From positions 1 through 64,000 of the forward strand of contig DXDR01000050.1 in assembly GCA_019115385.1 (NCBI GenBank): a stretch of 64,000 bases of DNA, read 5' to 3'. Position 1 is the stretch's first letter, and every line of letters starts with the position of its first letter. Source of the DNA: Candidatus Mediterraneibacter avicola (GTDB lineage: Bacteria > Bacillota > Clostridia > Lachnospirales > Lachnospiraceae). Both the position numbers and the translations under genes were made by a program. Below are positions 29,140 to 31,963 of the stretch, piece by piece. Under the pieces are notes generated by a model, which was not told where the DNA came from, made no database searches, and saw only the letters and a list, made by a program, of their open reading frames with translations.

Positions 29140-31851
29140 TTATTCCAATTTCCCTCTGATATATTTCTTACGGACTGCGTACCGCTCATTCTGATTGAAA
29201 AAAGAACATGCCCTTGCCTTTATCAGCATTTTCCGTCCCTCTGGATTCCGGGTATAAACGAGACTGCTCCTGCCTGTCACCATATTCATACATTTCTGAA
29301 AAAGTTCCGCTTTTTTTCGTGTACCCGCAAAGAGCGCCGGGACACAATAATATTCTCTGCGCCTCTTCCCAACCCTTCCGCCGATAAGCAGGTATCGCTG
29401 GTTTTCTACCGGTGAGAGGGTCTGCTGGAGGGTATCTGCATAGACATTTTTTTCCCGGTCTGTTCCCCCCTGCAGCCAGGAACAGAACAAAAATTTATCT
29501 CTTTCTTCTGTTATAACCTGGCATTGGGAGACAATATATCCACCTTCTTTTAGAGCAGACAGCACAGCATTCCCTATGGCCTGGAATCTCTTTACCGGAA
29601 AAAGGAGACGGGGAAGTCTTCTGCAAAACAATATTGTACAAATAAGAAATGCTCCGGTAATAAGAAAGAATACAGGATTTTCCCAGCCCTGTCCTGTCCT
29701 CAGCAGCATACGAAAAATCATATTGCATATCTGTACCGCCGTACATACTGCCTGAGCTGCCAAAGCATGGCGGAACCGGGCTCCGGGCCTGAATGCCCTG
29801 CGTTTCGCAGTGCAGGCGTCTGCCGCCTCCATTCCCCCCGGAAAGGAAACCGCATTCTCCCACTGCCGGGCTACCCTCATTCTGTCCCTGCTGCGGGCAG
29901 CCATCTCTTCATTCATCTCTGCCGTATGTGCTCTGGTATAAGGAGCGGATATCACACTCAGCCGCTCTATACCGTTCTCGATCAAGGTGCCGTCATAGTT
30001 TACGCCTACCACGCTTTGCATTCTGCGTTCCAGTGTATAGTAATCCTCTGACAATTCCGGGTTCTTAATTCCCATTCTTCTTTTTTCCTGTGTTTCTTTT
30101 ACATCACATATACAGACCAGGTGCCATATATTACTTACTTTACCCGGATCCCATTTACAAGTACGGATGGCCCGCCCCCGCATCTGTCCCCCTGTTACAT
30201 AAGATCCTACAAAACTTGCCATAATCAGAGAATTGATGCATGGCGAATCCCATCCCTCGCCTAAAAGTGATCTGGTGCCTGTCAGGATCTGTATATAACC
30301 CCTCTCAAACAATCTGGTCACAGCTCTGATATACGGTTCTTTTTTGCCGCTAAAGGAAAATTGGCTGTATCCCAGAGCCTTTCCATCAGTTCCTGTTAAC
30401 CTGGTGAAAACCGGATCCGACTGCGGATCCGCCTCCCGGGCTTCGTCCCGGAACGCATCCACAGCACGATCAGGAAGAAGGATCACGCTCCCGCACAAAA
30501 CCCCCAGCCTCCAGCCGGCCCCTTTCCTGCGCAGCAGTTCGAATATGGGAAAAACTCCCATCGAATACAGTTCTCTATCCGGGTTTCCCAATGCCGCCCT
30601 GTATTCCTGTCGGATATAATCAGTAAGGATCAGCATCCTGAGTTCATTTCCAAGGGCGGCATGTTCACACGCCGCGATCTGCAGGATGCTGTTCATCTTT
30701 CCCCTGCTCCCGGCCAGCATTTTTTCTACCTTTTCATTCGTAAGAAAATTAACTTTTTTCTGCCTGATCAACCCTCTTATTTTCAGTTCTTTTGTCAAGA
30801 TCGCCCTGAATTCATCTGTAAGTTCATAATTATCCCTGTCATCGAAAAGAATCCCCTGGATGAAATAGCCCATCCACCTTTCATCCATATCCGGCAGAGA
30901 TTTTACATCCAGCGCCTGAAGCCAACGTCCAGAAAAAGGGATACCGCACGCCTGACAATAAATCAGCAGCGAGGACAATAGGCATGGATTTTCCAGCATA
31001 GGATCACAGTACTCATCATACCTGAAAAGCGCTTTATGAGAAGCTGCCGCTTCTCTGAGCTGCCTGTCTTCCATCAGCAGCCGGAACATCTCGTCTGCTC
31101 CTTTCCGGAACTGGTATACCTGTTCATCCTCTTCGACGGAAGGATAATTAAACCATACATAGTCCTGGTGAGGACAAAGGCTCCCCTCCTTTACGAGTTC
31201 CGGCACAGTAATTTCCGCGTCAATGGGCCCGCACATCTGGATATACTTTTCCCACTGCCCCGGAGCCGAGTCATAGGGGGGAGTCGCTGTCAGTGCGATC
31301 ACGGTTACATCTCCCATTTCTTCCATAAATGTCTCCAGAGCTTTCCACCACTCATTTTTCAAATGATGGCACTCATCCAGACATATCGTGCGCACCCCGG
31401 CTTCTTTTACGGTGTTTACCAGATCAAAGCCTGTATAGTCTGTTTCCTCTCGTTCTCCCCTGACTTCGCATTCCTCTTCTTCTGCCTTTTTCCCTGTCAT
31501 ACCGCAGAACAGGGTCTGATAAGTAACAGAAGTGATCAGGCGCGGATCCTTTATATTATCAGAAAAAAACTTGTCCGCATTTTCCCTCTTCTCCCGGGGA
31601 AGAAAAGACTCTCTGATCCGCTCAAGCCACTGCTGACGTATAATGATCCTGGGTGACAGGACCAGGCAGGGAGCGCCGGTCCTGCGTATCAGTTCAATCC
31701 CCAGTATCGTTTTCCCCGCGCCTGGAGCCGCCACGATATGAATTCTTTTATCTGCCATGTAGGCATCCGCTTCATGGAGGATCCTTTCCTGATAGTTTCT
31801 CCATGTCCCCTGAAATGACAGAATACCTTCATATACATTTTTTGTCTTCAT
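29140..31851 (-). CDS. SF2 DEAD/DEAH-type helicase with C-terminal transmembrane hairpin and uncharacterised C-terminal domain
   Basis: 903 aa from MKTKNVYEG (upstream AAAGGAG RBS); Walker A AAPGAGKT, motif II DECH, motif III TATPP, motif V GEGWDSP, motif VI QMRGRAIR; hydrophobic segments ALAAQAVCTAVQICNMIFRML and PVFFLITGAFLICTILFC. Confidence 0.9.
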   Translation of the reverse strand: MKTKNVYEGILSFQGTWRNYQERILHEADAYMADKRIHIVAAPGAGKTILGIELIRRTGAPCLVLSPRIIIRQQWLERIRESFLPREKRENADKFFSDNIKDPRLITSVTYQTLFCGMTGKKAEEEECEVRGEREETDYTGFDLVNTVKEAGVRTICLDECHHLKNEWWKALETFMEEMGDVTVIALTATPPYDSAPGQWEKYIQMCGPIDAEITVPELVKEGSLCPHQDYVWFNYPSVEEDEQVYQFRKGADEMFRLLMEDRQLREAAASHKALFRYDEYCDPMLENPCLLSSLLIYCQACGIPFSGRWLQALDVKSLPDMDERWMGYFIQGILFDDRDNYELTDEFRAILTKELKIRGLIRQKKVNFLTNEKVEKMLAGSRGKMNSILQIAACEHAALGNELRMLILTDYIRQEYRAALGNPDRELYSMGVFPIFELLRRKGAGWRLGVLCGSVILLPDRAVDAFRDEAREADPQSDPVFTRLTGTDGKALGYSQFSFSGKKEPYIRAVTRLFERGYIQILTGTRSLLGEGWDSPCINSLIMASFVGSYVTGGQMRGRAIRTCKWDPGKVSNIWHLVCICDVKETQEKRRMGIKNPELSEDYYTLERRMQSVVGVNYDGTLIENGIERLSVISAPYTRAHTAEMNEEMAARSRDRMRVARQWENAVSFPGGMEAADACTAKRRAFRPGARFRHALAAQAVCTAVQICNMIFRMLLRTGQGWENPVFFLITGAFLICTILFCRRLPRLLFPVKRFQAIGNAVLSALKEGGYIVSQCQVITEERDKFLFCSWLQGGTDREKNVYADTLQQTLSPVENQRYLLIGGRVGKRRREYYCVPALFAGTRKKAELFQKCMNMVTGRSSLVYTRNPEGRKMLIKARACSFFNQNERYAVRKKYIRGKLE

Positions 31852-31917
31852 TAAACGCACTCCTTTGTCGGAAACTGTACTGTTTATTATACTATCATCC
31901 GTAAAATAAGAAAAGTA

Positions 31918-31945
31918 CTGCCGCACGAAATACTCAGTGCGGCAG
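31918..31945 (-). terminator. terminator downstream of spoIVA
   Basis: minus strand gctgccgcactgagtatttcgtgcggcagtacttttctt. Confidence 0.7.
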
Positions 31946-31963
31946 CACCGATATATTACCGGT

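Follow-up and report, generated by a model that had tools for sequence, protein, structure and literature searches.

A helicase with a predicted membrane hairpin and a C-terminal domain without known relatives is a candidate accessory defence protein of Lachnospiraceae and streptococci

Introduction

The window analysed here, a stretch of 64,000 nucleotides from contig DXDR01000050.1 of Candidatus Mediterraneibacter avicola, carries a large helicase gene between spoIVA and a gene for purine nucleoside phosphorylase (PNP), and raises the question of what a helicase of this kind does in such a place. A sequence-only reading of the window had suggested that the protein combines a complete superfamily 2 (SF2) motor with two hydrophobic segments and a C-terminal region that could not be assigned, and that it may be an undescribed single-protein defence system. 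A literature search found no paper on this protein, and the names that cover its family are generic, namely ResIII and 'DEAD/DEAH box helicase family protein'. Here, we describe the architecture, distribution and genomic surroundings of the family and weigh the functions that it might serve.

Results

The gene and its transcription unit

The helicase gene (29140..31851, minus strand, stop codon included) is an intact open reading frame of 903 codons, with an ATG at 31851 and a stop at 29140-29142, and its product matches the Pfam families ResIII (E = 2.6e-16) and DEAD (3.2e-6). Direct reading of the minus strand places a ribosome-binding site, AAAGGAG (31860..31866), 8 nt 5' of the ATG and a possible -10 element, TATAAT (31886..31891), further upstream; a consensus promoter scan found no full minus-strand promoter at this element. 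The spoIVA and helicase units are separated by the spoIVA intrinsic terminator (31910..31951, minus strand), which was located by a terminator scan and is strong when folded as RNA (-29.1 kcal/mol; shuffle z -5.5), and a promoter-like site, TTGAAC-17-TATAAT, lies upstream of the next gene. Given this terminator and the promoter-like site before the next gene, the helicase constitutes a one-gene transcription unit with its own ribosome-binding site, as had been proposed from the sequence.

A ResIII-type motor

All SF2 motifs quoted in the earlier reading are present. The first RecA-like domain (residues 14-235; 31147..31812, minus strand; Pfam, AlphaFold), which contains APGAGKT, DECH and TATPP, is the best-conserved part of the protein, with 64% mean identity. 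It is followed by an all-helical insertion (residues 236-380; 30712..31146, minus strand), delineated from the AlphaFold secondary structure, by the second RecA-like domain with GEGWDSP and QMRGRAIR (residues 384-580; 30112..30702, minus strand; AlphaFold) and by a linker and helical arm that precede the membrane segment (residues 581-683; 29803..30111, minus strand; AlphaFold). The Walker A, DExH and motif VI residues that we checked are invariant in 73/73 homologues, and those checked in the second RecA-like domain are invariant in the same set except for one W to Y change. Together with motif III, these features place the protein among the DExH/ResIII helicases of SF2. The AlphaFold model built with the 73 homologues has a pLDDT of 86 and a pTM of 0.83 for the whole protein.

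Searches with the whole protein returned ResIII (60 bits, cut-off 22.5) and DEAD as the sole Pfam matches above cut-off, and only weak or generic matches to the helicase core in NCBIfam, PADLOC and PHROGs, those in PHROGs being to named DNA helicases. Neither a nuclease nor any other known effector domain was recognised in the protein. The nearest solved proteins by sequence are archaeal XPB/RAD25 helicases (E about 1e-10, over residues 14-116 only), whereas whole-protein Foldseek matches comprise XPB, Hef/FANCM and RIG-I/MDA5/Dicer, each of them a duplex translocase or a sensor.

The closest known proteins each differ from the window protein. XPB/RAD25, represented by archaeal XPB-Bax1, has the same ResIII-type RecA core and yields the best solved-sequence and fold matches, but the window protein contains no RED tripeptide, has no room for the N-terminal damage-recognition domain, scores 27 bits against the NCBIfam XPB model (cut-off 610), has no Bax1 partner that we could find and adds a membrane hairpin and an unrelated C-terminal domain (CTD). 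Hef/FANCM and the RIG-I-like/Dicer proteins (Foldseek E about 1e-12) likewise combine a pair of RecA domains and an extra helical domain with a helical arm and a C-terminal domain; the similarity is nevertheless confined to the helicase core, the CTD has no fold match, and the window protein has a membrane hairpin between arm and CTD. Type I HsdR and type III Res subunits belong to the common ResIII helicase family, and in streptococci the helicase adjoins hsdR. However, the window protein matches neither HSDR_N nor EcoR124_C in Pfam, whereas the neighbouring streptococcal HsdR contains both in addition to a SWI2/SNF2 domain, and the window locus has no methyltransferase partner. Finally, Hachiman HamB is a defence-associated SF2 helicase and is encoded directly upstream of a window-type helicase in Suipraeoptans, but the window protein does not match the PADLOC HamB model and has no HamA partner; we know of no comparable membrane hairpin described in HamB. 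The PADLOC check proposed in the earlier reading retrieved no defence family that fits: against PADLOC-DB v2 (2023), the only match was Cas3b, with an E of 0.003 over 37 residues.

The membrane hairpin

The two hydrophobic segments noticed earlier (roughly 29620-29775) correspond in the AlphaFold model and in hydropathy profiles to membrane helices 1 (residues 691-716; 29704..29781, minus strand) and 2 (residues 724-750; 29602..29682, minus strand). Hydropathy peaks recur throughout the family, with a Kyte-Doolittle peak above 1.5 in the hairpin region of 73/73 homologues and two peaks above 1.0 in 66/73, although the region is the least conserved domain, at 17% mean identity. Very basic stretches flank the hairpin (KRRAFRPGARFRH on the N-terminal side, CRRLPRLLFPVKR on the C-terminal side), and its short loop is uncharged to acidic; by the positive-inside rule, the helicase core and the CTD should therefore both face the cytoplasm. 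With two hydrophobic helices and positive-inside flanks, the protein is predicted to be an integral membrane protein.

The hairpin is absent, with the remainder kept, from a homologue in Tritonibacter and from one divergent member (L069). Since the Tritonibacter protein retains the CTD, it is the hairpin that looks like an accessory part, whereas the CTD is no dispensable appendage; helicase and CTD may represent the ancestral unit, to which the hairpin was added or from which it was lost. The start of the Tritonibacter gene (L174:11546-14316) overlaps a gene for a 145-aa protein with a weak XpaC-like match, and DUF4178 genes lie divergently upstream. The Rhodovulum copy (L175:8486-11183), whose start is likewise overlapped by a small gene, is annotated as two ORFs and is therefore probably frameshifted.

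The C-terminal domain

The CTD (residues 752-903, about 150 aa; 29143..29598, minus strand) was delimited in the AlphaFold model and, when modelled alone, reached a pLDDT of 85.1 and a pTM of 0.80, with the predicted order alpha-beta-beta-alpha-beta-beta-alpha-beta-alpha. Searches against PDB sequences, Pfam and the viral folds of BFVD gave nothing significant, and comparison with PDB folds produced no significant match (best E 0.22, TM 0.27), in agreement with the initial impression that this region is unassignable. Nor did the CTD occur in any other architecture among the plasmids and the own genome that were searched; it was found only in the helicase family. The domain is nonetheless well maintained, with 40% mean identity and a dN/dS of 0.05-0.11, indicative of purifying selection. 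Conserved positions include N817, R819-Y820, V837-P838, T867-R868, G872-R873 and R880, and the most conserved polar residues are R799, K801, N817, R819, Y820, T867, R868, R873 and R880, a pattern more suggestive of a binding surface for nucleic acid or phosphate than of a nuclease site. We considered and rejected a catalytic nuclease, in view of the order of secondary structure elements and the mainly basic character of the conserved polar residues. Helicase, predicted membrane hairpin and CTD form a real and previously uncharacterised protein architecture.

Distribution and evolution of the family

The helicase family is distributed patchily among gut bacteria and oral streptococci, with scattered members elsewhere. 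Full-length members were found in about 26/397 sampled Lachnospiraceae genomes (about 6.5%), in 4 of 25 genomes of the same genus and, in a phylum-wide sample, in 2/399 genomes, the own genome included; in Streptococcus, 34 of the 147 species sampled (23%) carry the family, one as a relict and one with a broken frame. Further members occur in named genomes of Erysipelotrichales, Lachnospiraceae and Streptococcus, on a Paenibacillus plasmid (30% identity over 98%) and, among Rhodobacterales, in Tritonibacter and Rhodovulum. These frequencies, along with empty sites in sister genomes, answer the call for a patchy-presence analysis made when the gene was singled out. Broken copies were also seen in L114 and L117.

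A quick gene tree, in which several long branches are of uncertain placement, recovered Streptococcus and Erysipelotrichaceae each as a single group inside a mostly Lachnospiraceae tree, a position that fits what transfer would give. Purifying selection acts on every domain of the protein (dN/dS 0.05-0.23), and the helicase is the fastest-evolving gene of its block (56%-60% identity versus 65%-96% for neighbours in the same genomes). It is the most diverged gene in every syntenic genome, including the closest one, where its identity is 70% versus 80%-95% for the neighbours. Such rapid divergence fits an accessory gene under changing selection; divergence alone does not prove an arms race.

A search of viral contigs yielded distant helicases only. 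Two records filed as Bacteriophage sp. (L176 and L177; MT838455, MT836806) contain the helicase among bacterial-looking genes. Because these are unannotated faecal scaffolds, and one of them carries a protein whose start is identical to that of a Lachnospiraceae member (L049), their helicases were not taken as phage genes, the records being probably host scaffolds.

The spoIVA-PNP site and Lachnospiraceae neighbourhoods

In about eleven Mediterraneibacter-type genomes, the helicase gene lies between spoIVA and PNP. At least ten further genomes of the genus lack the helicase there and have the two genes side by side, which bears out the view that the helicase interrupts conserved synteny and shows that it is not a universal housekeeping gene beside spoIVA. 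In one genome (G010), the site is empty and a helicase copy resides elsewhere, with a C5 methyltransferase and a Vsr-type gene downstream of it. Within the genus, this gap may serve as a site of insertion, given that in another genome it holds an intact XRE regulator fused to membrane helices (L195:703-1500). Gaps of 520-820 bp are present in L198, L200 and L202, and a search of the longer gaps for helicase relics gave chance-level matches only. An apparent replacement gene beside the helicase in L073 and L081 was rejected, as it consists of antisense ORFs over the PNP region.

Most helicase neighbours in Lachnospiraceae are ordinary or metabolic genes, and no partner gene was conserved with the helicase among the neighbourhoods examined. 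We compared by PADLOC 229 non-redundant proteins encoded at most 3 genes away, mostly from Lachnospiraceae loci, with 145 control proteins encoded 5-10 genes away; the counts are rough and refer to the top 25 families listed. Among these, the near set included Hachiman, type II restriction-modification (R-M) and some MADS models, and the control set a methyltransferase, a GajB-like protein and several candidate families, amounting to no clear excess of defence genes near the helicase in this mainly Lachnospiraceae set. In Suipraeoptans, a relaxase, an AlwI R-M system and Hachiman HamA-HamB are followed directly by the helicase.

Streptococcal defence loci

A recurrent location in defence loci is evident in viridans streptococci, whereas the mainly Lachnospiraceae set shows no near-versus-far enrichment. 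Eleven streptococcal genomes examined carry the helicase at a common site, bordered at one end by a metE-type gene and at the other by scrK or an MFS gene with a DedA/VTT gene, and in 10/11 the locus contains known defence genes. Type I hsdR begins 49-80 bp after the helicase in six genomes; hsdS and hsdM lie further down, and the stretch in between holds variable cargo in the form of Tmn/YobI, DUF4062, AbiH, SIR2-HerA or a KAP-like NTPase that was recognised by its sequence only. In two genomes, AbiH follows the helicase and is itself followed by a type I system of another kind, ordered hsdM, hsdS, hsdR, and another two have, after a gap, either SIR2-HerA with a second SIR2 or Tmn; in the remaining one (L238), the helicase stands alone. 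The same site in L235 has hsdR and no helicase. The exchange of cargo and this helicase-less site indicate that the helicase is a stable yet dispensable member of the defence locus.

The viridans arrangement probably derives from one ancestral insertion inherited by the different species, and should therefore be counted as roughly one independent association rather than eleven. At four other streptococcal sites (L216, L219-L221), no defence genes were found beside the helicase. Several further observations concern these loci. Across L232-L240, one hsd family is replaced by another at the scrK-DedA site, and L222 has a frame-broken helicase copy (L222:5160-7813) within an otherwise intact hsdR locus. 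In L223, a CTD relict (L223:4983-5387) with hsdS-hsdM-hsdS' and a recombinase-like gene as its neighbours points to a type I locus that may have lost its helicase.

Discussion

We give roughly even chances to the reading that the helicase is an accessory, membrane-tethered SF2 duplex-DNA translocase that acts as a single-gene barrier to incoming DNA. In this scheme, the RecA domains and the insertion between them, whose fold and motifs are those of a motor, would close round duplex DNA and use ATP to move along it in the manner of XPB, Hef and FANCM, the substrate and activity being deduced from this likeness. The CTD, via its conserved arginines, may contact nucleic acid or a phosphate-bearing ligand and thereby set specificity. 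The basic-flanked hairpin, predicted along with its topology, would keep the soluble parts off the chromosome and hold them against the cytoplasmic side of the membrane, at the point of entry of phage or conjugative DNA, so that localisation itself could be the means of telling self from non-self. The motor might then strip, unwind or reel the incoming DNA, exposing it to host nucleases or restriction enzymes, which we invoke because the helicase protein has no recognisable nuclease.

The barrier reading plausibly accounts for the streptococcal defence loci, the AlwI and Hachiman neighbours in Suipraeoptans and the methyltransferase/Vsr context in G010; for the patchy distribution, empty sites, different sites in different genera and decayed copies; and for the combination of invariant catalytic residues with the fastest evolution, purifying selection, the predicted hairpin and the fold match to duplex translocases. 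Against it, the streptococcal loci amount to about a single association, Lachnospiraceae neighbours are mostly metabolic with no PADLOC enrichment, there is no conserved partner, effector domain or fitting PADLOC family, about eleven Mediterraneibacter-type genomes stably retain the gene at a single site, and four other streptococcal sites show no defence genes beside it. The initial suggestion of an undescribed single-protein defence therefore stands as plausible on the strength of the streptococcal and Suipraeoptans loci, while near neighbours in Lachnospiraceae are no richer in defence genes than those 5-10 genes away. The results agree with that suggestion in that a hairpin is predicted throughout the family, relatives often lack the gene at this locus, and the protein matches no characterised family beyond the generic SF2 core.

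A precedent for such a barrier is SNIPE, a membrane-bound GIY-YIG nuclease with DUF4041 that cuts phage DNA during injection and whose role in defence has been shown experimentally (PMC13190303). In line with what is predicted for the window protein, SNIPE is a single-protein, membrane-anchored and cytoplasm-facing enzyme proposed to meet phage DNA at entry, and it combines a variable membrane segment with a conserved soluble domain that has a basic face. However, SNIPE has no helicase, and we claim no sequence relation; by analogy, it is the nearest functional precedent for the predicted membrane helicase, not a relative.

An unlikely alternative is that the protein is an accessory genome-maintenance helicase, a membrane-associated factor of repair, recombination or segregation with no role in defence. 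Its closest solved sequence relatives are indeed the repair helicases XPB/RAD25, it is stably inherited between spoIVA and PNP, and its neighbours in most genera are ordinary. Yet the gene is missing from most relatives of every carrier, with 4 of 25 genomes carrying it in its own genus, it has decayed in some streptococci and evolves fast, and the window protein has neither the RED motif nor a conserved repair partner.

Rather unlikely, too, is a one-protein abortive system in which foreign nucleic acid is sensed by the helicase and CTD, and loading of this sensor makes the hairpin oligomerise and damage the membrane. The layout of helicase and CTD recalls RIG-I-like sensors, as the Foldseek matches to RIG-I, MDA5 and Dicer attest, every one of the 73 aligned members has a predicted membrane hairpin, and the streptococcal defence loci would suit this function. 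The absence of the hairpin from the otherwise intact Tritonibacter homologue and L069 implies, however, that it is not the core effector of the family, and its barely conserved sequence fits an anchor better than a pore. When the probabilities of the barrier and of this abortive system are added, a role of the accessory gene in defence of any kind appears probable, the entry-barrier mechanism itself being less so.

A membrane-tethered RNA helicase engaged in RNA decay, translation or RNA sensing is very improbable: the fold matches do include the RNA-binding helicases RIG-I, MDA5 and Dicer, but the best sequence and fold matches are the DNA translocases XPB and Hef, the PHROGs matches are DNA helicases, and the strongest contextual link is to DNA restriction. 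Slimmer still are the prospects of a DNA-uptake helicase in the manner of ComFA, which would suit the predicted membrane location and the presence of streptococci, several of which are naturally competent, among the carriers, but not the predominance of Lachnospiraceae, which are not known to be naturally competent, the absence of the gene from most streptococci or the lack of recognised com genes beside it.

The most far-reaching form of the barrier reading, a one-protein immune system in which a membrane-tethered duplex translocase with a new sensor fold intercepts foreign DNA at entry alongside different type I systems, is one that we put forward tentatively, as somewhat doubtful. If true, a helicase without a nuclease would join the small group of defences that act where DNA enters through the membrane, and a domain without any known fold relative would gain its first function. 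Thanks to the streptococcal carriers, this can be put to a direct test in bacteria that are easy to work with, since nature provides related species in which the helicase occurs with, without or beside different type I systems.
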